In this document: in pieces, positions 39,136 through 58,472 of the stretch
Numbering within the stretch: position 1 is the stretch's first letter
How the letters are laid out: each line of letters begins with the position of its first letter
Assembly: GCF_000328765.2 (NCBI RefSeq)
Contig: NC_019954.2
Span: forward strand, 1,842,516-1,906,515
Length of the DNA: 64,000 nt
From: Tepidanaerobacter acetatoxydans Re1
Lineage (GTDB): Bacteria > Bacillota > Thermosediminibacteria > Thermosediminibacterales > Tepidanaerobacteraceae
Reading direction: 5' to 3'
The notes under the pieces: model-generated
Seen by the model: the letters and a program-made list of their open reading frames with translations, nothing else
What the model was told of the DNA's origin: nothing
Database searches by the model: none
Program-made: the position numbers and the translations under genes

Positions 39136-41097
39136 TCAATATATATTGCCGTTTTTCCGGTAAGTTCGCCATACATTTTCAAAGAAGTCATCATCTTTAG
39201 GAATCTGGCGAACTTTACGCCAGATAAATTCACATTTGCCGTTTTGGTAAATAACTTCCTGCACCATATCTCCTCTTGTACCGTCATCAAGGGTGAATGT
39301 GAAAAGATCCGGCAGGGCATCATGAGGTTTTATACCGTTTTTGTCTGTGTATAGTGCGGAACCACGGCTTTTGCCACCGCATCTTACATAATCTAACATC
39401 GCTTCAAGGTAAACATACTGGCTTAAAAGCATGTCATGTAAGCGGTATACCCGGCAAAGGCCGGATGCGGAAGAAACTTTTACAGTCTTATTAAAATTCA
39501 TAAGTTCATTCCTTACTTCTTCGGCTGCTTTTGCAATATTTTCTATACTGCGAATTGCACCACCGAAACGGCTCATGCGTTTTGCCGCATTATCCCAGAT
39601 TTCTCTTACATTGTCACAATCTGAAAATACTGCTTCACCCATAGTAATGGCATCGGCAATTGCATATGCGGCTTGCCCGGCAAATACTGCAGAATCTGCC
39701 GGAGCACCCTTGCGATTTGCGGCAATGTACTGAGCTGCCCTTGTAGAACCTACCTGACCGGCATTTAGTGCCGTCCCGCCCGGACGATATACGCCGTGGC
39801 TTGCGCTTACTTCACCTGCGGCAAAAAATCCTTCAATATTCGTCTGCCACCATTTATTAATCGAAAGACCTCCATTATTGTGCTGGGCACAGACTGCAAT
39901 TTCCAAAGGCTCACTTGTAAGATCAACGCCCTTTTCTTTGTAGAACTTTACTGCAGGAGCATTCATATGCATAAGCCTTTCAATCGGCGTGCCAAAGGTT
40001 GCCCCAGATTTTTCCAAATAGTCCTTTGCCTCAGATGAAAGCTTGGAGAAATCTATCATACTATCGCCGGGATTACGGCTAAAATCAAGGAAAACCCGCC
40101 GTCCTTTTATGCAGGTTTCAATATATACGAGAATATCTATAATTGACGAACCATTACTGACCTTGCGGACATCAAAAGGCCACTGATAACCCTTCAGAAA
40201 TATCTTTGAAAGCATATCACCCTTATATTTGAAAAAATCCGCAAGGAACTCTCTCTCATCATTGCCGTTTTTATCAGTAGATATAAATCTCGGAAGTACC
40301 TGCATGTATGTGCCTGATACGTTCCAGCGGGGTTTCACCGAGGCTAATCCATACTGCCATTCGGTAAGGTTTTTGCCCATAATACCTGCCTCAAAGGCAA
40401 TCCCTGAAGCTCCTCTCTGGCTGAAGGGATAAACCGAGTCGGCATACATGCCAGCAGGACCGCCTGCGGCGTATATTACATTTTTGCAGTTAAATGCCAC
40501 ATATCTTCGATTTGGGTTCTGTGAATTTTGAACATCCAGGCATAGAAGGCCTAATAGTTTATTGCCGTCGGTTAAGATTTTAATTACCTGCATTTTATCA
40601 AAAATCTTGATGTTTTTTTGTTTTACCGAATTTTCAAGACATTTTGTCATATACTTCGAAGTGTACGGGCCTGCAGATGTGGCGCGCCGCTTCGGGTCAT
40701 GGTCGGTTTTATAGCCCACATACTCTCCGTATCTGTTTCGAGGAAATGGCACGCCGAGCTCTGCCAGTTTTAGAAAACACTGAGTGGACAGTGCCGCCTC
40801 ACACAGTGCTATATCTCCGTCAACACACAGACCCTCGAATAGTGTTTCGGCAAAGTCATATACGGAATCAGGCTCACTGCCGGCCAGTGTCAGCTTATAG
40901 TAGGTTTGTTTGTCAGAGCCTGTATTGCGCGATGTACCTGCTTTTAAATTCTCTGTCACTATTGCAATATCCTTTTGACCGAAAGCCGATAATCTATCCG
41001 CTGCATTAAGGCCTGCTGCGCCTGTGCCGACAACTACTGTATTAAGAGAATACACTTTAATGTCATATCCCATTATTTTAATTGACGATTCGATCAC
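39136..41097 (-). CDS. Fumarate-reductase/succinate-dehydrogenase-type FAD flavoprotein
   Basis: A 653-residue soluble flavoprotein. The FAD Rossmann motif TVVVGTGAAGLNAADRLSA is near the N-terminus, YKTDHDPKRRATSAGP and the capping region sit in the middle, and GVYRPGGTALNAGQVGSTRAA is the second FAD-contact motif. The family includes fumarate, urocanate and methacrylate reductases, aspartate oxidase and APS reductase alpha; no iron-sulfur or membrane subunit gene is adjacent. In island B it is a candidate enoate reductase or dehydrogenase. The GTG start follows AGGTGATAGC. Last gene of the island. Confidence 0.87.
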   Translation of the reverse strand: MIESSIKIMGYDIKVYSLNTVVVGTGAAGLNAADRLSAFGQKDIAIVTENLKAGTSRNTGSDKQTYYKLTLAGSEPDSVYDFAETLFEGLCVDGDIALCEAALSTQCFLKLAELGVPFPRNRYGEYVGYKTDHDPKRRATSAGPYTSKYMTKCLENSVKQKNIKIFDKMQVIKILTDGNKLLGLLCLDVQNSQNPNRRYVAFNCKNVIYAAGGPAGMYADSVYPFSQRGASGIAFEAGIMGKNLTEWQYGLASVKPRWNVSGTYMQVLPRFISTDKNGNDEREFLADFFKYKGDMLSKIFLKGYQWPFDVRKVSNGSSIIDILVYIETCIKGRRVFLDFSRNPGDSMIDFSKLSSEAKDYLEKSGATFGTPIERLMHMNAPAVKFYKEKGVDLTSEPLEIAVCAQHNNGGLSINKWWQTNIEGFFAAGEVSASHGVYRPGGTALNAGQVGSTRAAQYIAANRKGAPADSAVFAGQAAYAIADAITMGEAVFSDCDNVREIWDNAAKRMSRFGGAIRSIENIAKAAEEVRNELMNFNKTVKVSSASGLCRVYRLHDMLLSQYVYLEAMLDYVRCGGKSRGSALYTDKNGIKPHDALPDLFTFTLDDGTRGDMVQEVIYQNGKCEFIWRKVRQIPKDDDFFENVWRTYRKNGNIY

Positions 41098-41134
41098 GCT
41101 ATCACCTCATTTCTAAGCACACAACATATGTCAC

Positions 41135-41182
41135 CTACAGCCTCTGTATGTGGAATCCGCCATCCACATCAATATAGCTGCC
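41135..41182 (-). pseudogene. C-terminal remnant of an SDR dehydrogenase
   Basis: On the minus strand the only translatable piece, GSYIDVDGGFHIQRL followed by TAG, matches the C-terminal strand of short-chain dehydrogenases (TG-x-D-G-G-F type). The frame upstream is closed by a TAG next to it, and the rest of the gene is gone. It lies in the 150-base gap between the alcohol dehydrogenase and the flavoprotein. Confidence 0.45.
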
Positions 41183-41250
41183 CTACGAGCAGCACCGCCG
41201 CTGACTATAAAAATTATAATTCATTGGTTTCGGCAGAGACTTCCAGCAGA

Positions 41251-42345
41251 TTATGGTATTAGTACTGCTTTAACTGCCTCCTTATTTTCCATAACGCGTA
41301 AAGCCTCATTTACTTCATTCAATTTGAAGCGATGCGTTATCATTTTTTCAAAAGTGTTTAAGTTGCCTAGAATTAAATTCAGTGCTTGATGGGTATGTCT
41401 TGTAGCACTTACCCAAACACCTTGGATTTTAATATTTTTATGGACAAGATCAGTGTACCCATCAAATTCTATGGTTCCCATGGGCTGTCCAAATCCAATG
41501 GATACATATGTTCCTGCGGGTCTTATCAAATCTAAGCCTTCACGAAGTGCTTCAGGATATCCTACCGCCTCGATTGCAAAATCTACACCTCGATTGCCGG
41601 TTAACTTCATGATAATATTCTTTCGCTCCTCTATACTTAGTTTACTTCTATTTAAAATTACGGTTGCTCCAAATTCTTTGCACATATTAAGCCTAGTTTC
41701 AGAGCCGCCGATAACAATTATTTCTTTTGCACCGGAAGCTTTAGCAAAAGCTACACTAAACAAACCAATTGGCCCAGGTCCTTGAACTAATACAATATCA
41801 GATGTATCAGGTCTTATCATATCAAATCCATGGGCAGTAGTTGCTCCTGAACATGAAGCTGCCACTAATACAGCCGGATCAGCTTCTTTTGATATTTTAA
41901 AAATATCGGTACCTTCACGCAAAATAATGTATTCGGCATAGCAACCATTTAGGTAAGGAAATTCGTTTCTAGATATATTGATTCCGTAAACTTTTCTATC
42001 AGTACATAAGGAGGGCTCGTTTAATACAGCACAATAATAGCAATGACCACAACTTATTCCTCTATTCCATAATATAGCATCTCCAATGCTCAAGCTTTCG
42101 CCTTCTACGGTTTTTAAGTCACCATTGATTTCGACTATTTCTCCTACACCTTCATGACCTAAAATCATTGGAAGTTTTAATCTCGGATCCTGGCCCTTCC
42201 ACATATGAACATCGGATCCACATACTCCGGCTGCTTTTATCTTAACAAGCATTTCATTTTGCCTTAGTTCCGGAATCTCAATTTTTTCCGGAACTAAGGG
42301 TTTATTAAAATCTTTAAGAATATAAGCTAAGCATTTCATCCCCAT
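41251..42345 (-). CDS. Zinc-dependent alcohol/polyol dehydrogenase (MDR family)
   Basis: A 364-residue medium-chain dehydrogenase. VCGSDVHMWKG and GHEGVGEIVEI provide catalytic-zinc ligands, the four-cysteine lobe CGHCYYCAVLNEPSLC the structural zinc, and VLVQGPGPIGLFSVAFAKASG the NAD(P) fold. It oxidises a secondary alcohol on a polyol, threonine-like or cyclitol substrate; specificity is not readable. The ATG follows GAGAGGAGAAAAATAA. Part of the island B operon, 49 bases after the cupin. Confidence 0.92.
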   Translation of the reverse strand: MGMKCLAYILKDFNKPLVPEKIEIPELRQNEMLVKIKAAGVCGSDVHMWKGQDPRLKLPMILGHEGVGEIVEINGDLKTVEGESLSIGDAILWNRGISCGHCYYCAVLNEPSLCTDRKVYGINISRNEFPYLNGCYAEYIILREGTDIFKISKEADPAVLVAASCSGATTAHGFDMIRPDTSDIVLVQGPGPIGLFSVAFAKASGAKEIIVIGGSETRLNMCKEFGATVILNRSKLSIEERKNIIMKLTGNRGVDFAIEAVGYPEALREGLDLIRPAGTYVSIGFGQPMGTIEFDGYTDLVHKNIKIQGVWVSATRHTHQALNLILGNLNTFEKMITHRFKLNEVNEALRVMENKEAVKAVLIP

Positions 42346-42394
42346 TTATTTTTCTCCTCTCTATGTTTATAACGTTTATAACAAGGTTTGTTCC

Positions 42395-42772
42395 TTACTT
42401 TATTTCTCCATTTAGCTCTTGTTTCCAATGTTCCACTATACTTTTCGGTGAATAACAAAAAACCATTATCATGTTATCGTCCGAAGTGTTTTCTAAAATA
42501 TGCGTTGAGTTTGGTGGTATATATACGTAGCTTCCTTCCGTCACGCGCTCACTCTCATTATCAATGGAAATCATACCGCTTCCGGACACTATAAGATATA
42601 CTTCTTCTTGTTCATGGGAATGAAGAGGCACTGAACCTCCAGCGTATATTGTTACATGTCCCATAACAAAATTTTGTGCTTCCATCGGAGCATCAGGTCC
42701 TACTATAACTCTTGTTAATCTGCCTGCCGGGAATTTCGTTCCTTTTACATTGTAAACATTATTGATTTTCAT
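42395..42772 (-). CDS. Small cupin-domain protein
   Basis: A 125-residue single cupin. The metal motif VPLHSHEQEEVYLIVSGSG and the second motif PPNSTHILENT give a His/Glu/His set for a divalent metal. The ATG at 42772 lies after GGGGAGGTAAATAAT, one base past the IolB-like stop; the frame from 42838 would overlap that gene. Perhaps an isomerase or epimerase for a pathway intermediate; related single cupins also act as sugar-lyxose isomerases or dioxygenases. Confidence 0.85.
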   Translation of the reverse strand: MKINNVYNVKGTKFPAGRLTRVIVGPDAPMEAQNFVMGHVTIYAGGSVPLHSHEQEEVYLIVSGSGMISIDNESERVTEGSYVYIPPNSTHILENTSDDNMIMVFCYSPKSIVEHWKQELNGEIK

Positions 42773-42773
42773 A

Positions 42774-43556
42774 TTATTTACCTCCCCTGAAACGCTTATC
42801 AAAATTAACTTTAGAAAAATTTCTATCTTCGCTTTCATTTAATGAAGCCATAATAAAGATGTAGCTTAGTTTGGTATTAGGCCCCGCAACATTCGGATGA
42901 AAGCCACTAGGAATCGCTACAGCTGAACCGTTCAGCACAGTTTTGCATACTTCCGGATTGGTTATATCCTTGGAGTATACCATTTGAATCCCAAATTGAG
43001 GATATGGCATGTCAAAAAATATATATAGTTCTTCTCTCTTGTCTCCATGCTCGTGAGGAGGCCAACTCGTCCAATTGCCACTATCTCCTATGGTTATACC
43101 TGCCAGCAATCTAGATGCATTAACCTTTTTTGATATTATTTGATGGACTTCTCTTTTGGTAGAATTCTCCCTTTCACCGGCAATCATATAGGTATCTTGA
43201 TCCCTCTTGATATCGTCAAAATATAGGACTTTTGGAATTGAAACGATATTCGACGGCGTTGAAAACCATACTAGCTGAACTTCATTATTTGAAGTAACCT
43301 TAACTTTACTATTTGGTGATATAAATAGCCCATCATATTTTGCTATGGCCTTACATTTAGTTTCTATTTCAACTGTTGCATTACCCTTTATGCAGAATAG
43401 ACCCATTTCCTCCTGTTTTGTATTAACAACATTACTGTCATTAATCAATGTTAATGTCCCACTGGATATATATTTTAACGGTGAGTTTTCAGGATTAACA
43501 ATGGTGTTGAAACCGGTTCTTTCAAATTCATATTCAAAAAATATATTCTTATCCAT
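42774..43556 (-). CDS. IolB-like 5-deoxyglucuronate isomerase family protein
   Basis: A 260-residue bicupin. WTSWPPHEHGDKREELYIFF and MPYPQFGIQMVY are close to the IolB signature, with HEH and the later PSGFHPN histidine as likely metal ligands. IolB converts 5-deoxyglucuronate to a 2-keto-5-deoxygluconate form in inositol breakdown. No iolC, iolD or iolG accompanies it here, so a related acid may be the substrate. It overlaps no neighbour and is followed one base later by the cupin gene. Confidence 0.87.
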   Translation of the reverse strand: MDKNIFFEYEFERTGFNTIVNPENSPLKYISSGTLTLINDSNVVNTKQEEMGLFCIKGNATVEIETKCKAIAKYDGLFISPNSKVKVTSNNEVQLVWFSTPSNIVSIPKVLYFDDIKRDQDTYMIAGERENSTKREVHQIISKKVNASRLLAGITIGDSGNWTSWPPHEHGDKREELYIFFDMPYPQFGIQMVYSKDITNPEVCKTVLNGSAVAIPSGFHPNVAGPNTKLSYIFIMASLNESEDRNFSKVNFDKRFRGGK

Positions 43557-43567
43557 CGGATTAGGCC

Positions 43568-44350
43568 TTACTTTCCTTCAAATTTAGGCTTACGCTTTTC
43601 CACAAATGCTTTTACGCCCTCTTTTGTATCTTCGGTTGTGAAGCAATAAGCCAAAGCCAGTGCATCTCTAGAGGGGTTAATGCAATTGTTGTTAATAGCC
43701 ACATCATTGATAATATGTTTATCTATCTCCATGGTTATAGGCGCTTTTTGCGCTATTTCTTCAGCAATTTTTAACGCTCCGTCTCTCAGCTCTTCTATAC
43801 TATTAAAAACCTCAGTCACTAAACCATATTCCAATGCCTGTTGTGCATTAATAAATATACCCCTGTAAACCATATTTTTAGCTCGACCTGCTCCGATCGT
43901 TCTAGTTAGCCTGCCCGGACCTCCCCAACCAGGTATTACGCCCAGTTTTATTTCCGGTAGACCAAATTTGGCATTTTGCGAACATATTCTGATATCATTA
44001 CACAAGGCTAGCTCTAAACCTCCACCTAGGGTATATCCGTTAATAGCCGCAATAGTAGGAATCCTTAATTGTTCTAACTTAGAAAATACTTTATGCCCTA
44101 CATCGATTAAATATTTTGCATCCTTCGGACTCATGGTAGACAATTGATCTATATCTGCACCAGCTATAAAGGATTTTTCTCCAGCTCCTGTAATTACAAG
44201 AACCCGAATCTCCTTGTCTTCTTCAACCTTTGTCAATATGTCGTCTAATTCTTCTACCATCGTAGTGTTTAAAGCATTCATAAATTTAGGCCTGTTAATA
44301 CTCAGAATTGCCACATGACCTACCTTTTCCAAATTCCAACCTTCATTCAC
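43568..44350 (-). CDS. Enoyl-CoA hydratase/isomerase (crotonase family)
   Basis: A 260-residue crotonase. The oxyanion-hole residues lie in FIAGADIDQL and YTLGGGLELALCNDI. Both catalytic glutamates of true hydratases are present: one in GGGLELAL and the other in FGLPEIKLGV. The start is GTG nine bases after GGAGG, directly behind the CoA-transferase gene. It would hydrate an enoyl-CoA or open a ring CoA ester in the island B pathway. Confidence 0.93.
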   Translation of the reverse strand: MNEGWNLEKVGHVAILSINRPKFMNALNTTMVEELDDILTKVEEDKEIRVLVITGAGEKSFIAGADIDQLSTMSPKDAKYLIDVGHKVFSKLEQLRIPTIAAINGYTLGGGLELALCNDIRICSQNAKFGLPEIKLGVIPGWGGPGRLTRTIGAGRAKNMVYRGIFINAQQALEYGLVTEVFNSIEELRDGALKIAEEIAQKAPITMEIDKHIINDVAINNNCINPSRDALALAYCFTTEDTKEGVKAFVEKRKPKFEGK

Positions 44351-44363
44351 TTGAAATTCCTCC

Positions 44364-45923
44364 TTAATAATTTTTAATTATGTTTTTTAAATTTATATTG
44401 TCTTCATGGAATATGCTAACATCCATGATTTTTAAATTATCATCTATTATCGGTTTAAAATCCATCTTTTGAATGATATCTTTTTCCAAGTCTATACCTG
44501 GTGCGATTTCTATCAATGTTAAACCTTCTTCGGTTAATTCAAATATCGCCCTTTCAGTAACATATATTACCTTTTGGTTAATCTCTTTTGCATATTCTCC
44601 ACTAAAGGTAATCTGCTCCACGTTTTTTATAAATTTCTTATGTTTTCCTTCATTTAAAATTGATAGTTTTCCGTCTTTAACCTCTACTTTTAACCCACCA
44701 GCAGTAAAAGTCCCGCAAAAAACAACCTTCTTTGCCGATTGAGATATGTCTATGAAGCCGCCGCATCCGGCAATATTTGGTCCAAATTTACTTACATTAA
44801 CATTTCCATCCATATCAGCTTGTGCAAGTCCCAAAAAGGTTATATCTAGACCGCCACCGCTATAAAAGTCAAACTGTGAGGGTTCATCAATCATAGATGC
44901 AGGATTTGTAGCTACTCCGAATATATCCCCTTGAGCAGGCACTCCGCCGACTATACCCTGTTCAATTGTTAGCGTTAAGTACTCACTTACACCTTCTTCC
45001 GCAGCTACTGCTGCTACACCATCCGGCATACCAAAACCGAGATTTACCACGGCTCCGGGAAATAATTCCATGGCAGCCCGTCGAGCTATAACTTTTCGTT
45101 GATTTAATGGCATGGGATTAAGTTGACCTAAAGGTATTTTTACTTGTCCGCTAAAACCGGGATTAAATTCCCCCTCACTCGTTTGCCACTGTCCCTTGTC
45201 TTGCACAACCGCATCTACTAAAATGCCGGGGATTTTAACATCTTTTGGATTTAATGTGCCGGCTTTGGCGATATGCTTTACTTGGCATATAACCTTTCCG
45301 CCTGAATTTCTAGCAGCTTGGGCTAATGCTAACACCTCTAAAAACACTGCTTCTTCTTCCATCGATATATTTCCATCCTCATCAGCTGTAGTACCTCTGA
45401 TTATTGCAACATCTATGGGAAAAGCTTTATATAGTAGATATTCTTTACCGTCTTTTACAATTAGTTCGACCAAATCTTCTGTAGTTACCTTATTTAGTTT
45501 TCCGCCTTCAACTCGCGGGTCTACAAAGGTCTTTAATCCTATGTGAGTTAGTAATCCCGGCCTTTTTGCAGCAATTTCCCGATAAAGTTGTGTCATTACA
45601 CCTTGTGGTAAATTATAAGCTTCTATTTTGTTGTTATTTGCAAGTTCTGCCATTCTTGGAGACCATCCCCAATGGCCACCAATAACCCTTTTTACCATTT
45701 TTTCATGAGCAAAACGGTTTGTCCCGGTGGATTTTTTGTCACCAAGTCCCGTTGCATGAACAAAAGTCATATCACATGGATGACCTGTTTCTAAGAAGCT
45801 TTTTTCTACCATTTCCAATAAAAGACCCGGTTCTAAGACAGCACCTCCAGAGCCCGTAGTGGCAACTGTATCTCCGTCGTTAATCAGTTTTACCGCTTCT
45901 TCAGGAGTAAAAAGTTTTTTCAT
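44364..45923 (-). CDS. Family I acetate/propionate-type CoA-transferase
   Basis: A 519-residue fused alpha-beta CoA-transferase (YdiF/propionate CoA-transferase type). The N-terminal half has TTGSGGAVLEPGLLLEMVE. The C-terminal half contains NLGFGMPDGVAAVAAEEG and the catalytic glutamate in LTIEQGIVGGVP, with GGGLDITFLGLAQAD following. It activates a carboxylic acid with CoA from acetyl- or propionyl-CoA, giving the entry point for the hydratases encoded next to it. ATG follows GGAGGATCCAA. Confidence 0.94.
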   Translation of the reverse strand: MKKLFTPEEAVKLINDGDTVATTGSGGAVLEPGLLLEMVEKSFLETGHPCDMTFVHATGLGDKKSTGTNRFAHEKMVKRVIGGHWGWSPRMAELANNNKIEAYNLPQGVMTQLYREIAAKRPGLLTHIGLKTFVDPRVEGGKLNKVTTEDLVELIVKDGKEYLLYKAFPIDVAIIRGTTADEDGNISMEEEAVFLEVLALAQAARNSGGKVICQVKHIAKAGTLNPKDVKIPGILVDAVVQDKGQWQTSEGEFNPGFSGQVKIPLGQLNPMPLNQRKVIARRAAMELFPGAVVNLGFGMPDGVAAVAAEEGVSEYLTLTIEQGIVGGVPAQGDIFGVATNPASMIDEPSQFDFYSGGGLDITFLGLAQADMDGNVNVSKFGPNIAGCGGFIDISQSAKKVVFCGTFTAGGLKVEVKDGKLSILNEGKHKKFIKNVEQITFSGEYAKEINQKVIYVTERAIFELTEEGLTLIEIAPGIDLEKDIIQKMDFKPIIDDNLKIMDVSIFHEDNINLKNIIKNY

Positions 45924-45934
45924 TTGGATCCTCC

Positions 45935-46348
45935 TTATAAAAATTTAAGAATATGCGTTCCTACTGTACAGAGTTCTCCATTTTGATTCGTAATTTCTAT
46001 CTCTGAAAATGTTTTATTGTTTTCGTAATCTACTTCAAAGCAAGTATATGTTACTGTTATTGTATCTCCAATAAATATAGGTTTTAAAAACCTTATTTTG
46101 TCGTATCCATATGATACACATGGTGACGTAGACATTTCTGCAAATTTTGTTGAAGCTGTTGACGAAATCCCTATAGATAAAACTCCATGTGCTATCCTTT
46201 TTTTGTAATGTGTTCGTTTCATATATTCGGCATCTATATGATTTGGCGAAAAATCACCTGTAATCCCCGCAAATAAGTATATATCAGATTCACTGATAGT
46301 TTTTGAGAAAACAGCGCTCTGGCCTGGATGAAAAGATATCTTACTCAT
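45935..46348 (-). CDS. MaoC-like (R)-hydratase
   Basis: A 137-residue hot-dog-fold hydratase. GDFSPNHIDAEYMKRTHYKKR and IAHGVLS carry the catalytic Asp and His of the MaoC/PhaJ family. It provides an opposite-stereochemistry hydratase beside the crotonase, so the pathway may have two hydration or dehydration steps on different hydroxyl configurations. ATG follows AAGGAGGGTGCATA, 12 bases past the epimerase gene. Confidence 0.9.
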   Translation of the reverse strand: MSKISFHPGQSAVFSKTISESDIYLFAGITGDFSPNHIDAEYMKRTHYKKRIAHGVLSIGISSTASTKFAEMSTSPCVSYGYDKIRFLKPIFIGDTITVTYTCFEVDYENNKTFSEIEITNQNGELCTVGTHILKFL

Positions 46349-46360
46349 TATGCACCCTCC

Positions 46361-47173
46361 TTACGGTAATTTCCTTTTTAAATAACTTATAGTTTCAAAG
46401 GCCGCCGGATCAGGATCTTTACAGTATTGAAATCCTAATTCGGCAGTGATAAAGCCTGTATAAGCCGATTCTTTCAAACGTTCAAAGAAAATATCATGAT
46501 TTATTTTGCCCGTTCCCGGAACCATATGGTCATCGGTAATTCCCATATTGTCATCAATATGAAAATGAAGCATGCTCTTATCAAACTGGTATAATACATC
46601 GGAAATTGATTCACGATTTAGATACATATGACCGGTATCAAATACAAATCCTATTTTATTGTCCACATCTTTTAAGACCTTCTTGGCATCATCCGCCGTA
46701 ACTACTAAATCTGTTTCATATCTATTACCGGGCTCCATCATTATCTTAATATCTTCACCTGCATAATCTAACAGCTCATTTATGCTTTTAATCATATTTT
46801 CCCAAGCATTCTCATAACCCTGACCAAATCTACTGTGGCCAGGGCATACACTAACCAAAGGTGATCCTAATTCAACGGCTACATCTATGCTTTTTTTAAG
46901 ATAATCAATGCTGCGTATACGTATAATCTCGTTATCTATAGCAATGTTTGTGGGATATCTGAACTGGGCCGGTATAAAGCCAGAAATAACTAAACCCACA
47001 TCTTCAATCAATGCTCTTAAAATTTTTATTTGTTTTTCTATTAAATCATACGGATATGCATGAGGAGTTCCACCCCAAATTTCTACGCCATCATATCCAA
47101 ACGCAGCTATCCTTTTAATCGCATCTTCCAATGAATAATAATAGTATAGAAATGTTGAAATGCTGTGATTCAT
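46361..47173 (-). CDS. Sugar phosphate isomerase/epimerase-like TIM barrel (AP endonuclease 2 family)
   Basis: A 270-residue xylose-isomerase-like barrel. VEIWGGTPHAYPYD, MMEPGNRYETD, FDTGHMYLNRE, HFHIDDN and TAELGF supply the Glu/Asp/His metal ligands typical of IolE, IolI, tagatose epimerase and dehydroshikimate dehydratase-type enzymes. In this setting 2-keto-inositol-like isomerisation or dehydroshikimate dehydration are both possible. ATG after GGTGAGATGAA, 26 bases past dctM. Confidence 0.88.
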   Translation of the reverse strand: MNHSISTFLYYYYSLEDAIKRIAAFGYDGVEIWGGTPHAYPYDLIEKQIKILRALIEDVGLVISGFIPAQFRYPTNIAIDNEIIRIRSIDYLKKSIDVAVELGSPLVSVCPGHSRFGQGYENAWENMIKSINELLDYAGEDIKIMMEPGNRYETDLVVTADDAKKVLKDVDNKIGFVFDTGHMYLNRESISDVLYQFDKSMLHFHIDDNMGITDDHMVPGTGKINHDIFFERLKESAYTGFITAELGFQYCKDPDPAAFETISYLKRKLP

Positions 47174-47199
47174 TTCATCTCACCTACCTTTGCAGTATT

Positions 47200-48489
47200 T
47201 TACATTAAATTAGGAGCAAATTTGGTCGGAATGAATAAAATTAGCTTTGGAAATAATACTAATAACATTATTACTAGCAATAGAGCGATTATAAATACAA
47301 AAGTAGCTTTGAAGGCCTTTTCAATTGATATTTCTCCGATTTGTGCTGCCAACATCAAACATAAACCATATGGAGGAGTAATTAAACCTAATGCTAGTGT
47401 TACGATAACTATTACTCCTAACTGTATGGGGTTTAGGCCCAAAGATTCACCTATAGGAGCTATTATAGGTGCAAAAACAATTATAGCTGGAGTTGCATCC
47501 ATAAAGGTACCTATAACAATAAAAAAACCCACTATAAACATTAAAAATAATACGGGACTTGTGGAAATGCTTGTTATAAAGCTTCCCAGCATATCAGTAA
47601 CATTATAATATGCCATAATATAAGAAAATATTGTGGACGTGCCCACACAAAACAACGCTACTGAACTCATTTTTCCGGTTCTAATCAAAATCTGCCATAA
47701 TTGTTTTAATGTTATGTTTCTGTATACAATAAATGCCAACAGCAGTGAGTAAACTACGGCTATTGCAGCCGCTTCAGTAGCAGTAAAAACGCCTCCAATA
47801 ATACCTCCTATGATTATCAGCGGAGTCAATAATGGCAAAGCCGCTTTGCTTATTATTGCTATCCTTTCTTTTATAGGATAACTTTCTTCACGTGGGTAAT
47901 CATATTTTACGGCATAATAGTAGCATATTGCCATTTGAGATGCTGCTATTAATATACCCGGAATAATTCCTCCTAAAAATAATGTTCCAACAGAGATATT
48001 TACACTTGCCGCATAAACTACGGCTGTAATGCTTGGTGGTATCACAACTCCCATGGTAGATGAAGCACAAGTCACGGCTACTGTAAAATCCCTACTATAT
48101 CCTTTTTTTATCATTGCCGGAATGAGTACAGAACCGATTCCTGCTGTATCTGCTTGAGAAGAACCCGATATACCGGCAAAGATCATGCTGACCAAAACAT
48201 TTACTTGGGCAAGACTACCTCTAACATGTCCGACGAGTGCGTAGCAGGCATCAATCAGCTTATCAGTAATCTTACATTCATTCATTAATTCTCCTGTCAA
48301 TATAAAAAGCGGAACCGCAAGAATAACAAAACTATCTAAACCAGCAAAAATCCTTTGTGTTAGCACCCATAGCGGCAAACTCTTTTCACTGACAAACAAA
48401 AGAAATGAAGATAACCCTATGGAAAAAGAAACAGGTACGGAAAATAGTATTAATATAAAGAGAGAAACTAGTAAAAAAAGTATAATCAT
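47200..48489 (-). CDS. dctM: TRAP transporter large permease DctM
   Basis: A 429-residue membrane protein with about 12 hydrophobic segments and the DctM motifs VPLFILTGELMNECKI, GISGSSQADTAGIGSVLIPAM and LGLITPPYGLCLMLAAQ. It forms the Na+-coupled channel of a tripartite ATP-independent periplasmic transporter for organic acids. It follows dctQ by 14 bases; ATG after GAGGAGGGTATAT. Confidence 0.96.
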   Translation of the reverse strand: MIILFLLVSLFILILFSVPVSFSIGLSSFLLFVSEKSLPLWVLTQRIFAGLDSFVILAVPLFILTGELMNECKITDKLIDACYALVGHVRGSLAQVNVLVSMIFAGISGSSQADTAGIGSVLIPAMIKKGYSRDFTVAVTCASSTMGVVIPPSITAVVYAASVNISVGTLFLGGIIPGILIAASQMAICYYYAVKYDYPREESYPIKERIAIISKAALPLLTPLIIIGGIIGGVFTATEAAAIAVVYSLLLAFIVYRNITLKQLWQILIRTGKMSSVALFCVGTSTIFSYIMAYYNVTDMLGSFITSISTSPVLFLMFIVGFFIVIGTFMDATPAIIVFAPIIAPIGESLGLNPIQLGVIVIVTLALGLITPPYGLCLMLAAQIGEISIEKAFKATFVFIIALLLVIMLLVLFPKLILFIPTKFAPNLM

Positions 48490-48503
48490 ATATACCCTCC
48501 TCG

Positions 48504-48962
48504 TCAGATTATGCTATGCAATAGCTTTTCTACAATATATATAATCATAAGTAATCCTCCCACAGGTATTGCGGCATAAATCCAGATCATTCTTATATGC
48601 ATTACAGGAGATACCCTTCCTAACCCCATGAGCATATACTCTTTACCATAAATCAATAGAACAAAGCTTAATGCGAGCATTGCAATATAAACAAATATGT
48701 CAAGGTACTTATGATTTTTTATTCTATCTTTTACTATAGTCACAGAAAAATGGGCATTGTTTTTAACTTGGACACTTGCTCCTATAAATACAAGCCAAAT
48801 AAAGGAAAACCGAGCAACCTCGTCGGTCCATGGAATTGAAAGTCCTAAAATTCTATAAACAACCTGAATAAATACAGTTGTTGTTATAATCGCAACTAAT
48901 GTACCTATTATAATATTTGAAATCTTCTCTAAAAAGTTAGTAAGTGTTGCCAAAGTTGACAT
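48504..48962 (-). CDS. dctQ: TRAP transporter small permease DctQ
   Basis: A 152-residue protein with four membrane helices and the DctQ signature WTDEVARFSFIWLVFIGASV. It couples the binding protein to DctM. ATG after GGAGGAGGTAATAATC, separated from dctP by an intercistronic hairpin. Confidence 0.95.
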   Translation of the reverse strand: MSTLATLTNFLEKISNIIIGTLVAIITTTVFIQVVYRILGLSIPWTDEVARFSFIWLVFIGASVQVKNNAHFSVTIVKDRIKNHKYLDIFVYIAMLALSFVLLIYGKEYMLMGLGRVSPVMHIRMIWIYAAIPVGGLLMIIYIVEKLLHSII

Positions 48963-48983
48963 GATTATTACCTCCTCCTTTTT

Positions 48984-49012
48984 AACGAGCTCCTAAAATT
49001 TAGGAGCTCGTT
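48984..49012 (-). other. Perfect hairpin between dctP and dctQM
   Basis: AACGAGCTCCTAAA (48984-48997) pairs with TTTAGGAGCTCGTT (48999-49012) around one base. The T-run TATTTTTTT lies on the plus-strand side only; on the minus strand, the coding direction, an A-rich ribosome site follows. So it probably stabilises the dctP message or weakly attenuates, and would terminate any antisense transcript. Confidence 0.75.
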
Positions 49013-49055
49013 TATTTTTTTGTAGTCCATAGTTTTACATATTTTATTAAGTAAG

Positions 49056-50081
49056 TTATTTTAATTCTTGTATCTTTTCAATTAAGCCATTGAATTGTGG
49101 TTTTAACTCATTAATTAGGGGTTCAACTACTTTTGCAAAGGCAGCTTGATCAACTGTGTTAATTTTTACCCCTTTCGCTTTCAACTCTTCAATTGTCTCT
49201 TCTTCAAACTCTGCCCAAGCTTTTATTTGGTATTCTTGAGACGCCTTAGCCGCATCCATTATTGCCTGTTGAATTTCCTCTGGCATTTCATTCCACTTTT
49301 TTAGGCTCATAATCAGCATGTCCGGGATTCTCATGTGTTCGTCCAAAGAAAAATACTTTGCAACTTCATAATGCTTCATAGTCAATAAACTTATGGGACT
49401 ATTTTCTGCTCCGTCTATTACCTTCGTCTGTAAAGCTGAATAAACCTCGGCAAAAGTTGTTGTTGTAGGTATAGCCTCAAATGCTTCTATGGTTTTTATC
49501 ATAACTTGACTAGGCATAACCCTTATTTTTAAACCTTTCAAATCCTCCGGTTTATTAATGGGGCGAACGCTGTTGTAAATAGAGCGAGCACCTGCCTCGT
49601 AATAGACAATGCCTTTAAGTTGTTTATTTTCAAGATCTTTAAAAATTTCTTCTCCTACGCTTCCATTTAATACCTTCCAATAATGATCAGCATCTCTGAA
49701 TAAAAAAGGAACGCTGAAAATGTCCATCATGGGAGCAAAACCGCTCATATTACCTGCAGATACCCTAACAAATTCTAAAATACCTTGTTGGGCTTGTTCA
49801 ATTACTTCAGTTTCTTCACCTAATTGGGCCGCAGGATAGACTTTTACCTCTACCTGACCGCCGGTGCGCTCATTTACTTCTTTGGCAAAGACATATAATG
49901 CTTCAGTCATTGGGTGTTCTGCAGGGTGATTTGTTGAAACTCTGAATGTATATTTTTGAGCCGAACCACCCTTGTCTTCTTTATTATCCGATTCTCCCGC
50001 ATTGTTAATCCCGCATCCTGCTAATACACCTATAGTTAATGCAATTACAAGAAGAATTACTAGTATTTTTTTAATTGACAA
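49056..50081 (-). CDS. dctP: TRAP transporter substrate-binding lipoprotein DctP
   Basis: A 341-residue lipoprotein: signal peptide ILVILLVIALTIGVLAGC with lipobox cysteine, then the DctP fold (RVSTNHPAEHPMTEALYVFA; GLKIRVMPSQVMIKTIEAF with the conserved carboxylate-binding Arg). It delivers an organic acid to DctQM. The start is TTG eight bases after GGGGAGG, 124 bases past aroE. Confidence 0.94.
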   Translation of the reverse strand: MSIKKILVILLVIALTIGVLAGCGINNAGESDNKEDKGGSAQKYTFRVSTNHPAEHPMTEALYVFAKEVNERTGGQVEVKVYPAAQLGEETEVIEQAQQGILEFVRVSAGNMSGFAPMMDIFSVPFLFRDADHYWKVLNGSVGEEIFKDLENKQLKGIVYYEAGARSIYNSVRPINKPEDLKGLKIRVMPSQVMIKTIEAFEAIPTTTTFAEVYSALQTKVIDGAENSPISLLTMKHYEVAKYFSLDEHMRIPDMLIMSLKKWNEMPEEIQQAIMDAAKASQEYQIKAWAEFEEETIEELKAKGVKINTVDQAAFAKVVEPLINELKPQFNGLIEKIQELK

Positions 50082-50205
50082 ATTGACAACCTCCCCTTAT
50101 TAATCTTTTAAATTTTCGGCTGACACTTGTTACCTGTTACTTTATTTATTAATTAATTATTACACCCCCTCACATAATACATAGTAGGGTAATATGTTAA
50201 AACAA

Positions 50206-51078
50206 TTAATTGTCATAGACTGAAGCTTTTGCCACCTTGAAAATGATATTTATATCCGGTTCAAGTCCAGTCCATATTTTATAAGCAGCAGCAGCTTGGT
50301 ATACCAGAAGGTTTATTCCTTCAATTACTTCTAAATTCAAACTTCGAGCTTTACTTATTAAAGTAGTCTCACGGGGTTCATATATGGTTTCGTAAATTAA
50401 TGTATTACTTCTCACTAATTCCCACGGCACTATATCAGCAAGGTTTCCATTGTTATACATTCCTAGAGATGTACAGTTTATAATGAGATCAGATTCTTTT
50501 ATGCCTTCGTTCCATGACTTTTTATCCCAAGGTATTATTTCTACTTCTGTTTTACTTAAATGTTCTAGCCTCTTTCTAAGATTTTCAGCCTTATCAATAC
50601 TTCTATTAGTCAAAAACAACTTCTTTACCCCTTTTAGTATCAACTCAGCGGCAATAGCTTTTCCCACGCCTCCCGCTCCAAAGATAAACACCCTATCCGG
50701 CAGGACTCCAACTTTATTTATTATAGACATTGAAAAGCCCGTGCAATCTGTATTATAACCCACCAAAGTACCGTTTTTATTTAAAATACAATTTACCGCA
50801 CCTATAATTTCAGCTTCAGGCAACAATTTATCGCAATATTTTACAACCTCTTCTTTAAGCGGCATAGTTATACTAAGCCCCTTAATATCAAAGCTCCTTA
50901 CCGCATCAATTGCGAGTTTAAGATTATTTGTATCTGTATTCAATGCGAGAAAAATTTTATCAAGATTGTTATAGCAAAATAAAGTATTATGAATAATGGG
51001 AGAGAGTGAATGACTTATAGGTGTGCCAAGAATAGCATAAATTTGTGTTTTCCCAGATACAATATGGTTTTTGTTCAT
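50206..51078 (-). CDS. aroE: Shikimate/quinate dehydrogenase-like protein
   Basis: A 290-residue AroE-family enzyme. SHSLSPIIHN and SITMPLKEEV hold substrate residues, with catalytic Lys75; NTDCTGFS holds Asp111; FIFGAGGVGKAIAAEL the nucleotide motif; NCTSLGM also matches. The ATG at 51078 is eight bases after AGGTGG. No other aromatic-biosynthesis gene is near. It is the first gene of a LacI-controlled operon with a TRAP transporter, so a catabolic shikimate/quinate or related role is at least as likely as biosynthesis. The symbol reflects family only. Confidence 0.85.
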   Translation of the reverse strand: MNKNHIVSGKTQIYAILGTPISHSLSPIIHNTLFCYNNLDKIFLALNTDTNNLKLAIDAVRSFDIKGLSITMPLKEEVVKYCDKLLPEAEIIGAVNCILNKNGTLVGYNTDCTGFSMSIINKVGVLPDRVFIFGAGGVGKAIAAELILKGVKKLFLTNRSIDKAENLRKRLEHLSKTEVEIIPWDKKSWNEGIKESDLIINCTSLGMYNNGNLADIVPWELVRSNTLIYETIYEPRETTLISKARSLNLEVIEGINLLVYQAAAAYKIWTGLEPDINIIFKVAKASVYDN

Positions 51079-51112
51079 TTTTTCAACCACCTAAAAATAG
51101 TTATTTTTATCC

Positions 51113-51131
51113 AATCGTTTGCGCAATCGTT
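51113..51131 (-). promoter_or_regulatory. Operator of the second LacI regulator at the island B operon head
   Basis: AATCGTTTGCGCAATCGTT lies 35 bases before the aroE start. It shares 16 of 19 bases with the site in front of the regulator gene (52194-52212), including both AATCGTT boxes at the same spacing. Confidence 0.75.
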
Positions 51132-51168: not shown

Positions 51169-52161
51169 TTACCTTACCGAACTCCTTATTTTTAATTTAC
51201 ATGGTAAAGTTTTTATTATTGGGTTAGGTTTGTTTTTAGCCTCTATAAGTTTGATTAGCCTTTTACAGGCTGCTACTCCCATTTCATAAAAGGGCTGTGA
51301 TACGGTAGTTAAAGGTGGATCAAGTAAGGCAACCATGTCTAAATCATCGAATCCTATTACAGAGATATCTTCAGGAACTGAAAGACCGTAATCCTTAATG
51401 GCTCGAATCACACCTATGGCTTTGGGGTCACTAGTAGCAAACACAGCATCAGGTTTGAGGCCTTTTCCTAATAGTGTCATCATCGATTTATAGCCATCTT
51501 CCCAACCATAAACATCATGGAGTATTATGTCATGGTTAAGAGGAATATTAGCTTCCTTAAGTGCTTTTTTATATCCTTCAAAGCGCTCTTGATACAGTAA
51601 TATATCGGAGGATCCGGTAATCAGTGCTATATTTTTTAACCCTCGAGATAAAAGATACTTAGTTGCTTCATAGGCTCCATTTATGTTGTCGGCTGTAACT
51701 GCATCAACATTACCACTGATTCGTCGGATGAGAAAAACCATTGGAAAACCTTCATTTTTTAATTTTAAAAGATGTTCGTGACCTGGTCTAGCTGTAGAAA
51801 ATATAAATCCATCAATCAATCGTCGACGTAGACTATCAATGTAAAACTGTTCTCTTTCCACATCTTCATCGGTATTGCATAATACTACCGTATATCCGTA
51901 CTTATTTGCAGTATCTTCAATACCACGTATTGCAGCAGGGAAAACCAAATCTCTGATATTGGGAATTATAAGACCGAGAGTTTTACTTTTCCCATCTTTT
52001 AGGCCTTGTGCCAAGATATTAGGTTGATAATTTAGTTCTTCTACAGCTTCCATTACCTTTTTCTTAGTCTCTTCATTAACAGGTATTTTGCCGCTAAGTG
52101 CTCGAGATACAGTGCTGGCCGAAACCCCTGCTCTCTTGGCAACTTCTTTTATTGTAACCAA
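51169..52161 (-). CDS. LacI-family transcriptional regulator of island B
   Basis: A 330-residue repressor: HTH TIKEVAKRAGVSASTVSRAL, hinge YQPNILAQGLK, then the effector-binding domain (LGLIIPNIRDLVFPAAIRGI; VIGFDDLDMVALLDPPLTTV). The TTG at 52161 lies seven bases after AAAGGTGG; the longer frame from 52233 translates its own operator and is rejected. A shared 19-base site occurs before it and before aroE, so it most likely represses both. The effector should be the imported acid or a derivative. Confidence 0.92.
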   Translation of the reverse strand: MVTIKEVAKRAGVSASTVSRALSGKIPVNEETKKKVMEAVEELNYQPNILAQGLKDGKSKTLGLIIPNIRDLVFPAAIRGIEDTANKYGYTVVLCNTDEDVEREQFYIDSLRRRLIDGFIFSTARPGHEHLLKLKNEGFPMVFLIRRISGNVDAVTADNINGAYEATKYLLSRGLKNIALITGSSDILLYQERFEGYKKALKEANIPLNHDIILHDVYGWEDGYKSMMTLLGKGLKPDAVFATSDPKAIGVIRAIKDYGLSVPEDISVIGFDDLDMVALLDPPLTTVSQPFYEMGVAACKRLIKLIEAKNKPNPIIKTLPCKLKIRSSVR

Positions 52162-52186: not shown

Positions 52187-52212
52187 TTTGTGAAATCGTT
52201 TGTGAAATCGTT
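52187..52212 (-). promoter_or_regulatory. Tandem operator at the second LacI regulator promoter
   Basis: The 12-base unit TTTGTGAAATCG is repeated exactly (52187-52198 and 52199-52210), followed by TTTGT. Within it, AATCGTTTGTGAAATCGTT (52194-52212) matches the aroE-proximal site. The repeat ends about 25 bases before the TTG start, suited to autorepression. Confidence 0.75.
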
Positions 52213-52376: not shown

Positions 52377-52422
52377 AAAAAATCAAAGCTGCTCATGTTT
52401 ATTGCAGCAGCTTTGATTTTTT
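52377..52422 (-). terminator. Terminator of the KDG kinase transcript
   Basis: AAAAAATCAAAGCTGCT (52377-52393) and AGCAGCTTTGATTTTTT (52406-52422) form a 17-bp stem ending in A- and T-runs, so it works in both directions. It lies directly after the KDG kinase stop. Confidence 0.88.
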
Positions 52423-52433: not shown

Positions 52434-53459
52434 CTATCTCTGGACTCTTCCGGAGGCATCGCCTTTTGCTAAGTTTTCAACTTCCTTTACTGTCATGTGG
52501 TTAAAGTCGCCTACGATGGTATGTTTCAGACAGGAAGCCGCTACGGCAAATTCCACCGCATCCTGTGGAGCGTATCCGTTGAGGAGAGCGTAGATTAGAC
52601 CGCCGCCAAAGGAGTCTCCTCCACCGACTCTGTCTACTATATGCACTTTATATTTTCTCGAGGTATATATTTCTTTTCCGTCATAATACATTGCAGACCA
52701 ACCGTTGTCAGATGCCGAGTAGCTTTCTCTAAGTGTGATGGCCACACCTTTTAACGAAAACTTATCCATAAGTTTTTTTGCTACTTCCTTATAACCTTCT
52801 TTACTCAACTCGCCTTTTGTTACATCAGATTCAGCGGCTTGGATTCCAAAAACATCATGAGCATCCTCTTCGTTTCCGATAGAAATATCCACATACTGCA
52901 TAAGTTCAGACATGACTATGCGAGCTTTTTCTTTGGACCATAGTTTCTTGCGGTAGTTCAAATCACAGCTTACGGTTATACCCATCTTGTTTGCAGTTTT
53001 AACTGCTTCCAGGCATGCAGCAGCTACATCATCGCCCAAAGCCGGTGTAATGCCTGTAAAATGGAACCATTTAGCACCTTCTAAAATCTTTTCCCAGTCA
53101 AAATCTCCGGCTTCTGCCTCTGAAATAGATGAATGGCTGCGGTCATATACAACAAGCGAAGGCCGCTGAGACGCTCCGATCTCATTAAAGTAGATTCCTA
53201 GGCGCTCTCCGCCCTTTACTATATAGTCGGTATGCACGCCATATCTTCTAAGATGATTTATAGCGGCTTGACCGATAGGATTATCAGGAACTTTTGTTAC
53301 GAAATAGGCCTCCTCGCCATAATTTGCCAAAGATGCAGCTATATTAGCTTCACCGCCACCATATGTTACATCAAAGGAATCGGCTTGAACAAACCTGAGG
53401 TAATTAGGCGGGGTAAGTCTCAGCATTATTTCACCAAAAGTAACAACTTTATTAGCCAA
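52434..53459 (-). CDS. kdgK: 2-keto-3-deoxygluconate kinase (PfkB family)
   Basis: A 341-residue kinase converting 2-keto-3-deoxygluconate to KDPG. FGEIMLRLTPPNYLRFVQA is the KdgK-type N-terminus, YGGGEANIAASLANYG the sugar site and DRVGGGDSFGGGL the catalytic-base/anion-hole motif. The TTG at 53459 is eight bases after GGAAGG; the frame from 53495 has no ribosome site. It follows the aldolase gene by 55 bases, giving a two-step KDG to pyruvate plus glyceraldehyde-3-phosphate module that could serve uronate or gluconate breakdown. Confidence 0.93.
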   Translation of the reverse strand: MANKVVTFGEIMLRLTPPNYLRFVQADSFDVTYGGGEANIAASLANYGEEAYFVTKVPDNPIGQAAINHLRRYGVHTDYIVKGGERLGIYFNEIGASQRPSLVVYDRSHSSISEAEAGDFDWEKILEGAKWFHFTGITPALGDDVAAACLEAVKTANKMGITVSCDLNYRKKLWSKEKARIVMSELMQYVDISIGNEEDAHDVFGIQAAESDVTKGELSKEGYKEVAKKLMDKFSLKGVAITLRESYSASDNGWSAMYYDGKEIYTSRKYKVHIVDRVGGGDSFGGGLIYALLNGYAPQDAVEFAVAASCLKHTIVGDFNHMTVKEVENLAKGDASGRVQR

Positions 53460-53514
53460 TAAAAACACCTTCCTTTTGCAATTAAATTGACGCAATCAGT
53501 AAGTAAAAGATCGC

Positions 53515-54156
53515 TTATTTTCTTGCTGCTTTAATAGCTTCTACGAACTTGCGTGCCGTTTCTTCAACTTCAGCATAGTCTCCTTTTTTAGCTCCCTTAG
53601 TCAGTTCACCGCCTACGCCTACGGCTTGGCATCCTGCCTTAATCCACTCGCCGACATTTTCCAGGCTTACGCCGCCTGTTGGAACAATGGGTGCATAAGG
53701 TAGAGGCCCTAATATTGCTTTAATCATCGCCGGGCCAAATGCGCTTCCCGGGAAGAATTTGACAAAGTCTGCACCGGATTCCATTACTTCTACAACTTCT
53801 CTGATGGACATAGCACCCGGCATACATACCTTTTGGTACCTGTTGCACATTTTTACTACATCAGGATTAAAGTAAGGGCTGACTATGAATTCCGCTCCTG
53901 CAAGCATTGCTGCTCTTGCTGTTTCCGGATCCATTACTGTGCCGGCTCCGATTAAAATTTCCCCGTTAGGATAAGCTTTGGCAAGTTCAGTTATAACATC
54001 AATAGCTCCGGGTACTGTCATAGTAATTTCAATAGCCTCGACACCTCCGGCCTTAACAGCCTCGGCAATCTTTAGTGCCTGATCAGCCGATTGGGCTCTC
54101 ACCACGGCAACAATGCCACAATCTGTAATGCGTTTTATAACTTCTAATTTTTTCAT
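53515..54156 (-). CDS. eda: KDPG/4-hydroxy-2-oxoglutarate aldolase
   Basis: A 213-residue class I aldolase cleaving 2-keto-3-deoxy-6-phosphogluconate to pyruvate and glyceraldehyde-3-phosphate. Motifs are GIVAVVRAQSADQA, the Glu in GVEAIEITMTVPGAI, GAGTVMDPETARAAMLAGA and the Schiff-base Lys in DFVKFFPGSAFGP. The ATG at 54156 lies seven bases after AAGGAGG. Precedes kdgK and has its own promoter. Confidence 0.95.
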   Translation of the reverse strand: MKKLEVIKRITDCGIVAVVRAQSADQALKIAEAVKAGGVEAIEITMTVPGAIDVITELAKAYPNGEILIGAGTVMDPETARAAMLAGAEFIVSPYFNPDVVKMCNRYQKVCMPGAMSIREVVEVMESGADFVKFFPGSAFGPAMIKAILGPLPYAPIVPTGGVSLENVGEWIKAGCQAVGVGGELTKGAKKGDYAEVEETARKFVEAIKAARK

Positions 54157-54195
54157 AAAACATCCTCCTTGTTTCATATTACGATATTGTGTTTC

Positions 54196-54345: not shown

Positions 54346-54534
54346 TTAATCTTCTTTTATTGCTTCTGACGGACAGCTTTCCATTGCCTCTCTTGCATCA
54401 TCCTCAGCATCATCAGGCACTTCATCGACTACCACATCAGCTTTCCCATCGTCATTCCAATCAAAAACCGATGGGCAGGTATCAATGCAAAGACCACAAC
54501 TAATACAAAGATCTTGATCAACACTTAGTTTCAA
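54346..54534 (-). CDS. Small single-cluster ferredoxin
   Basis: A 62-residue acidic ferredoxin with CISCGLCIDTCP (Cys10, 13, 16, 20) and a distal CP (Cys54), the pattern of monocluster 4Fe-4S ferredoxins of thermophilic clostridia; the fourth ligand is probably Cys54, with Cys20 free or in a disulfide. The TTG at 54534 follows GAGGAGG; the frame from 54636 overlaps the permease gene and lacks a ribosome site. It carries electrons between oxidoreductases; the partner is unknown, but several flavoproteins lie in this window. Confidence 0.9.
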   Translation of the reverse strand: MKLSVDQDLCISCGLCIDTCPSVFDWNDDGKADVVVDEVPDDAEDDAREAMESCPSEAIKED

Positions 54535-54604: not shown

Positions 54605-55618
54605 TTATCTTTTTGCAAAATATTTGCGAATGTCAAAAGCTACGGCAGTAATAATTATGATGCCTTTGATAACTTGCTGCCAGTAAGCGGAAACTCCTAG
54701 GATAACTAATCCGTTGCTTAGTACTTCGAATATTAATACGCCGGTGATGATTCCAGATACTCGACCTATGCCGCCGGAAGTGGATACGCCTCCTATGGTG
54801 CAGGCTGCTATGGCGTCAAGTTCATACATTAGGCCGTAGTTGTTTGTAGCTCCTCCGGTTCTTGCGGCAAGTAGTGCCCCGGCCAAACCGTAAAGACCGC
54901 CGGCTAGTGCATAGACTTTAACTAGTGTGGGCTCAACTTTTACTCCGGATACTTCTGCTGCACTGGGATTGCCGCCTATGGCGTATATGTATTTGCCAAA
55001 TTGTGTGTGGTTATACATAAACCAAATTGCGGCTATTATTATTGCTGCTATGAGGACTAGGTTGGGTATTAGAAGCATTGAGCCGGATGCAAGGTTTGTA
55101 AAGTCGTCTCTTAGGCCTCCTATGGGCTGTGCATTGGTGTATATGCATGCAAAGCCATATACTATTACTTGCATGCCCAGTGTGGCTATGAATGCGGGTA
55201 CTTTTAGGTATGCTATTACTGAGCCGTTGATTATGCCTATGATGGCACCTATGAGTACGGCTAGCAGTATGGGTAGTATTATGGGCAGGTCGGGCAGGTT
55301 TTCATATATTTTGTATGCGTAGTCAGGTCGTTGCAGCAGGCTTGCGGATATGCATGCCGTAAGGGCTACAACACGGCCTGCGGAAAGGTCTGTGCCGCGG
55401 GTGATTAGTGCACCGCTTACTCCTAATGCTATTATCATGCGCACTGAGGATATGCGCAGTATGTTGCCTATGTTTGAAGGTGATAGGAAGTTTTTGTTGA
55501 GTATGCCTATTGTTAGGGATAATACTAGAAGTACTATGTATATGGCGTTGTTGCTTAATATGGTTTTTAGTTCGCTGGTTTGCAGGCCTGGTTTTGTTTT
55601 TGGTTTTGTAATAGCCAA
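54605..55618 (-). CDS. mglC: Galactose/ribose-type ABC transporter permease (MglC/RbsC family)
   Basis: A 337-residue membrane protein with about ten hydrophobic segments and the family motif GTDLSAGRVVALTACI and the C-terminal loop GGVSTSGGIGRVSGIITGVL. ACIYTNAQPIGGL in the middle is typical of MglC proteins. TTG start after GGAGGTAACAAA, 33 bases past the ATPase. Forms the channel for the sugar captured by the upstream binding protein. Confidence 0.92.
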   Translation of the reverse strand: MAITKPKTKPGLQTSELKTILSNNAIYIVLLVLSLTIGILNKNFLSPSNIGNILRISSVRMIIALGVSGALITRGTDLSAGRVVALTACISASLLQRPDYAYKIYENLPDLPIILPILLAVLIGAIIGIINGSVIAYLKVPAFIATLGMQVIVYGFACIYTNAQPIGGLRDDFTNLASGSMLLIPNLVLIAAIIIAAIWFMYNHTQFGKYIYAIGGNPSAAEVSGVKVEPTLVKVYALAGGLYGLAGALLAARTGGATNNYGLMYELDAIAACTIGGVSTSGGIGRVSGIITGVLIFEVLSNGLVILGVSAYWQQVIKGIIIITAVAFDIRKYFAKR

Positions 55619-55651
55619 TTTGTTACCTCCTCTGTGTCTTCTATCTTTTCT

Positions 55652-57163: not shown

Positions 57164-57204
57164 TGTTCTCACCTTTTTTAAGTTAGATGTGGGTTTGGGG
57201 AATT

Positions 57205-57228: not shown

Positions 57229-57241
57229 GTTGTTTGTTGTG

Positions 57242-58434: not shown

Positions 58435-58472
58435 ATAGCTGGTAATATTTTTGTACTAAAAAAATAAAGACA

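Follow-up and report, generated by a model that had tools for sequence, protein, structure and literature searches.

A LacI-associated operon of Tepidanaerobacter acetatoxydans with CoA enzymes and a fumarate reductase-like flavoprotein, probably serving sugar-acid catabolism

Results

Gene content of the operon

A 64,000-nucleotide window of the Tepidanaerobacter acetatoxydans Re1 genome (positions 1,842,516 to 1,906,515 of NC_019954.2, the single contig of 2,761,252 bases) contains a twelve-gene operon encoding an importer, several coenzyme A (CoA) enzymes and a fumarate reductase-like flavoprotein, for which we consider the likely substrate and route. All twelve genes lie on the minus strand at 39136-51090, the strand that also carries the other window genes, the operators and the terminator-like hairpin described below, and every family, assigned with Pfam and NCBIfam profile searches, scores above cut-off by Pfam. 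Transcription begins with an oxidoreductase of the AroE/shikimate dehydrogenase family (50206-51090). This is the genome's second copy, the biosynthetic AroE lying in an aro cluster elsewhere, and the Ser-x-Ser, Lys, Asn, Asp and Gln of the shikimate site are present. A tripartite ATP-independent periplasmic (TRAP) importer follows, made up of the solute-binding protein DctP (49056-50081) and, by Pfam, the small permease DctQ (48504-48962) and the large permease DctM (47200-48489). A strong 13-pair hairpin at 48984-49012, in the gap between dctP and dctQ, perhaps raises the level of DctP.

The enzymes downstream comprise a TIM-barrel sugar epimerase of the AP_endonuc_2 family (46361-47173), whose nearest named families are FrlC and IolO and whose nearest structure is TM_0416; a MaoC-type (R)-enoyl-CoA hydratase/dehydratase (45935-46348); a family I CoA-transferase (44364-45923), nearest in structure to E. 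coli YdiF; a crotonase-family hydratase with both catalytic Glu residues (43568-44350); a KduI/IolB-family ketol-isomerase with a metal-binding His/Glu motif (42774-43556); a small cupin starting at its second ATG (42395-42772) and kept beside most operons for this type of flavoprotein; a zinc-dependent medium-chain dehydrogenase/reductase (MDR; 41251-42345); and the FAD_binding_2 flavoprotein itself, here termed FRD1 (39136-41097). From DctQ through the KduI-like gene the intergenic gaps measure 11-26 bp. The sequence-only reading that preceded this work had named these families in this order, which the open reading frames and Pfam bear out, and its view of a single catabolic unit with its own importer is supported. 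Curated NCBIfam cut-offs are reached by AroE (TIGR00507) and DctP and by none of the other enzymes, so specific functions cannot be read from the models. The CoA-transferase, MaoC and crotonase proteins retain, by eye, their usual catalytic residues. No family III CoA-transferase was found in the host genome, and the crotonase as a query against the genome contigs returned a distant archaeal match only.

Directly upstream on the same strand lie the most informative neighbours, which the earlier reading had left unmentioned: a LacI-family repressor (51169-52161, start near 52161), a PfkB-family 2-keto-3-deoxygluconate (KDG) kinase (52434-53495) and the genome's only 2-keto-3-deoxy-6-phosphogluconate (KDPG)/2-keto-4-hydroxyglutarate aldolase (53515-54177). 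Between lacI and the kinase gene, a terminator-like hairpin with a T run was read by eye at 52380-52419.

A conserved repressor site

The palindrome AACGnTTGnnCAAnCGTT, a predicted LacI operator, stands 5' of AroE and thus of the whole operon (51114-51131) and again 5' of lacI (52195-52212). The same site precedes lacI or flavoprotein operons at five further loci (L023, L027, L033, L034 and L035), where LacI is 72-83% identical to that of the window, and was not found at loci with a LacI of at most 57% identity. Under a first-order Markov null, the expected number of sites per Mb was 0 with at most one mismatch allowed and 4.7 with two. The exact operator core is found at a single place in the host genome, this operon; matches to the 15-base core with one mismatch run at the control level genome-wide, and hence only the exact site and its conserved placement count. 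The operons sharing the operator differ in their enzymes, while the TRAP importer and the flavoprotein are present in all of them. One conserved repressor thus seems, from these sequences, to control the set. A shared inducer is the simplest reading.

Conservation in relatives

The whole set recurs at L023, in another genus of the host's family, and in nearly the same order: LacI, AroE, TRAP importer, TIM-barrel epimerase, CoA-transferase, crotonase, KduI/IolB, cupin, MaoC, zinc dehydrogenase and flavoprotein, adjoined by KDG kinase and KDPG aldolase. Most enzymes are 65-78% identical to those of the window, while AroE stands at 59%, MaoC at 44% and the flavoprotein at 31%; MaoC has been relocated, and the flavoprotein is of a distant second type, FRD2. 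Across 398 genomes sampled from the phylum, a close relative of the KduI/IolB protein occurs in just one, the genome carrying L023. The complete gene set is therefore conserved yet rare, and the possibility that these are unrelated neighbours that drift apart in other genomes was not borne out. Conservation of the CoA-transferase is by itself no evidence, because relatives 57% identical are present in Listeria. AroE accompanies the loci L023, L027, L033 and L034. The L033 copy (3408-4328) is the only AroE found in its genome (G005, 99% complete), where it lies outside any aro cluster and directly after KDG kinase.

The importer points to uronates

By sequence, DctP groups with hexuronate-binding TRAP proteins. 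Among its closest relatives of known structure are 4n91 and 4mhf, described as binding proteins for glucuronate and for glucuronate/galacturonate (PMC7660916). In the window's DctP, R166, R187, N227, D254 and N51 are spaced like the residues that this study names as ligand residues. The DctP proteins of L033 and of an E. coli relative described below fall in the same hexuronate-type group. Most other leading matches of DctP in the PDB are probably complexes with uronates.

The host possesses a second hexuronate-type locus, L062 (G000:C1:1614500-1634000), which at 5689-13869 carries a TRAP importer, a KduI/IolB-like isomerase and, by eye, genes resembling UxaB and UxaA, the latter found in the host genome at this locus only. 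Neither UxaC nor UxuA was found in the host genome, which together with the composition of L062 suggests that the KduI/IolB-like protein there replaces UxaC and that such proteins, judged by sequence, probably act as the uronate isomerases of this host. Indeed, E. coli KduI helps to convert galacturonate and glucuronate (PMC3578941).

A flavoprotein with a largely lost fumarate reductase active site

Aligned with E. coli FrdA (Met1 numbering), both FRD1 and FRD2 have a gap at His45, Gly for His233, Ser or Thr for Arg288 and Gln for His356, and retain Arg391. In FrdA, His45 carries the covalent FAD (flavin adenine dinucleotide), Arg288 donates the proton, His233 and His356 are active-site and substrate residues and Arg391 binds substrate. 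No iron-sulphur or membrane partner subunit is encoded in the operon. The fold family and Arg391 are thus shared with FrdA and with the L-aspartate oxidase NadB, whereas the four other FrdA positions are replaced or missing; with most catalytic residues gone, including the proton donor, a fumarate reductase role in the tricarboxylic acid (TCA) cycle was rejected. The loss of His45, His233, Arg288 and His356 likewise leaves unsupported the enoate reduction that the sequence-only reading had envisaged, and oxidation or isomerisation of a sugar acid is more likely. Prediction of an FRD1 structure from the single sequence was unsuccessful, with a predicted local distance difference test score (pLDDT) of 33.7.

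Flavoproteins of this kind are associated with KDG kinase and with sugar-acid importers. Homologues of KDG kinase or KDPG aldolase lie near FRD1 or FRD2 in 11 of 18 loci, and on a rhizobial plasmid (Rhizobium) a KdgK-like kinase gene adjoins the flavoprotein gene. An IlvD-type dehydratase accompanies the flavoprotein at seven loci and a CoA-transferase with crotonase at four, never both together. Among the FRD1 loci, two (L024, 7342-8667; L025, 8243-9574) encode between flavoprotein and cupin a family of proteins of about 440 residues with no Pfam match, and a third (L028, 4103-9473) places an FRD1 and TRAP pair beside an apparent ornithine fermentation cluster.

A related operon in E. coli

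An uncharacterised E. coli operon between ytfB and rplI encodes a TetR regulator, a short-chain dehydrogenase/reductase (SDR), a TIM-barrel epimerase, crotonase, CoA-transferase and FRD1, followed by either TRAP genes or a major facilitator superfamily (MFS) transporter. Its CoA-transferase (49%), DctP (39%), FRD1 (35%) and crotonase (33%) are recognisably those of the window by identity, and importer and epimerase are of the same kinds. It differs in having TetR for LacI and an SDR for AroE and zinc dehydrogenase, in lacking KduI, cupin and MaoC, and in having no adjoining KDG genes. The enzyme part is present in 3,095 of 5,426 complete E. coli genomes and the TRAP version in 1,440; the MFS version occurs in a BL21(DE3) derivative. 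For this MFS protein the D-galactonate transporter family gives a score of 315 bits and the aromatic acid symporters one of 80, which speaks independently for a sugar acid. K-12 MG1655 lacks the operon, retaining at the site only the pseudogene ytfA and yjfZ. In other E. coli the place of ytfA (NC_000913.3, 4427694-4428095) is taken by tetR of the FRD1 operon, and the pseudogene is probably a remnant of that gene.

Discussion

A probable sugar-acid operon with an unusual enzyme set

Taken together, our findings describe a real, conserved and regulated variant of a sugar-acid catabolic operon that has not been described before; our literature search returned nothing relevant on anaerobic quinate pathways, on this combination of enzymes or on the E. 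coli operon. Family membership and gene context make a sugar acid the probable substrate class, and we consider it rather more probable than its negation that the operon serves, under LacI control, to import and degrade a sugar acid resembling a hexuronate or hexonate, with products entering the KDG-KDPG (Entner-Doudoroff) branch.

In the route that we propose, the TRAP importer would bring the acid into the cell, the KduI/IolB-like and TIM-barrel enzymes would shift the carbonyl and epimerise, and the AroE-like and zinc dehydrogenases would alter the oxidation state of hydroxyls. The CoA-transferase would then charge the acid with CoA and MaoC or crotonase remove water from the thioester, before CoA is handed back and a 2-keto-3-deoxy acid passes to KDG kinase. 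The CoA module would thereby stand in for the IlvD-type dehydratase of sister operons. Dehydration by way of CoA is suggested by the manner in which the two modules replace each other beside the flavoprotein, and is the most economical idea for the CoA enzymes because the window operon has no aldonate dehydratase of UxuA, UxaA or IlvD type. That such a dehydration exists, and that the FAD enzymes form a new family, distinct from fumarate reductases, with the sugar acid as substrate, is a possible but on balance doubtful proposal.

Several observations weigh against these interpretations. The operator was sought and not found before the KDG kinase gene, nor before L062; the kinase and aldolase genes (52434-54177), although linked to the operon, are not under its operator, and the tie to KDG metabolism is thus one of neighbourhood only. 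A uronate-type binder could still take up a ring acid of similar shape, and the AroE-like protein retains a shikimate-type site, so that the substrate may yet be such an acid. The substitution of CoA enzymes for IlvD is not forced, because L035, under the same operator, has neither module; the loci compared are few and partly related; the flavoprotein of L023 is FRD2, not FRD1; and we know of no sugar-acid dehydration that proceeds through a CoA thioester.

Alternative explanations

The sequence-only reading had favoured a polyhydroxylated cyclic acid such as quinate or shikimate. On such a route the acid would be imported, oxidised by AroE, activated with CoA, hydrated and opened by a crotonase-type hydrolase as in cyclohexanecarboxylate degradation. 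The complete shikimate-binding residues of AroE, its TIGR00507 score and its recurrence at four other loci speak for this, as do the likeness of the CoA-transferase, crotonase and MDR dehydrogenase to parts of anaerobic alicyclic pathways and the resemblance of a quinate-like ring acid to a pyranuronate. The AroE family is nevertheless not confined to hydroaromatic acids, one member being a 5-ketofructose reductase that acts on a keto-sugar (PMC7954740), and at L033 the AroE gene directly follows that for KDG kinase. Moreover, no 3-dehydroquinate dehydratase (AroD/AroQ) is encoded in the operon; the TIM-barrel protein reaches 20.8 of 1200 bits against QuiC and is thus no candidate dehydroshikimate dehydratase; and the epimerase, KduI/IolB and KDG genes are left unexplained. 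Given further the hexuronate-type DctP and, in the E. coli module, a galactonate-family MFS and an SDR where the window has AroE, this substrate is not favoured and we regard the hydroaromatic route as unlikely.

Alternatively, two modules may be stacked, the importer, AroE, TIM-barrel, KduI, cupin, zinc dehydrogenase and flavoprotein handling a sugar acid while the CoA-transferase, crotonase and MaoC form a short-chain acid module for either a side chain or a C3-C4 product of cleavage. The CoA-transferase is indeed close to YdiF and to common acyl CoA:acetate/3-ketoacid CoA-transferases, the crotonase is nearest to short-chain enoyl-CoA hydratases, and operons with the same operator elsewhere manage without CoA enzymes. 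Yet CoA-transferase and crotonase stand beside the flavoprotein again in E. coli and Rhizobium, where they are found in place of IlvD and not in addition to it, and we hold this arrangement too to be improbable. A published reading considers the cluster TepiRe1_1962-1971, which fits this operon, for a TCA route and acetate activation on the strength of its CoA-transferase and fumarate reductase homologues, taking both annotated functions at face value (PMC4374699). The flavoprotein lacks the covalent-FAD His, the proton-donor Arg and two substrate His residues of FrdA and has no adjoining iron-sulphur or membrane subunit, and the operon includes a TRAP importer and is under a repressor of the sugar type; this makes the acetate-activation reading very improbable indeed.

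Comparison with known systems and wider implications

The sugar-acid interpretation finds its closest counterpart in the L-gulonate pathway of Haemophilus influenzae, comprising the GulPQM TRAP importer, GulD, UxuB, UxuA, KdgK and KdgA (PMC5788505). Both combine in one neighbourhood a TRAP importer, a first-acting dehydrogenase, KDG kinase and KDPG aldolase; the window operon, by contrast, encodes neither UxuA nor UxuB and adds the AroE-like, KduI/IolB-like, TIM-barrel, cupin, flavoprotein and CoA-transferase genes and two hydratases. With the KduI hexuronate route of E. coli and host locus L062 it shares a TRAP importer, a KduI/IolB-family isomerase and the downstream KDG branch, but it lacks UxaA and UxaB and possesses the CoA enzymes and flavoprotein. 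Similarity to the Thermotoga inositol route, suggested by TM_0416 as nearest TIM-barrel structure, is far below cut-offs (zinc dehydrogenase against IolM, 137 of 450 bits; TIM barrel against IolO, 109 of 300). A myo-inositol operon was also considered and rejected (IolB-like protein, 87.7 of 205 bits; IolE, 45.5 of 290; kinase nearest to KDG kinases).

For the sugar acids derived from plant and host polymers, a few isomerase-dehydratase routes are the usual means of degradation. The gene set, repressor site and relatives described here suggest an additional route via CoA esters and a family of flavoenzymes misannotated as fumarate reductase. If true, CoA-dependent sugar-acid breakdown would be present in Firmicutes, in rhizobia and in more than half of the complete E. 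coli genomes. In E. coli it would constitute a metabolic blind spot, confined to one site and absent from K-12 MG1655, that is directly testable given the frequency of the operon and its presence in a BL21(DE3) derivative. The gene set and its context also cast doubt on what has been inferred in print about how a syntrophic acetate oxidiser activates acetate.

Additional features upstream

Between the KDPG aldolase gene and that of a sugar ATP-binding cassette (ABC) permease lies a small, unlisted open reading frame (54346-54534) for a 62-residue ferredoxin with the motif CISCGLCIDTCP, a possible electron carrier. Further upstream of the KDG genes, the block at 54605-63694 encodes a ribose-type ABC importer, additional periplasmic sugar-binding proteins, a histidine kinase and an AraC-type response regulator, and reads as a system for sugar sensing and uptake.

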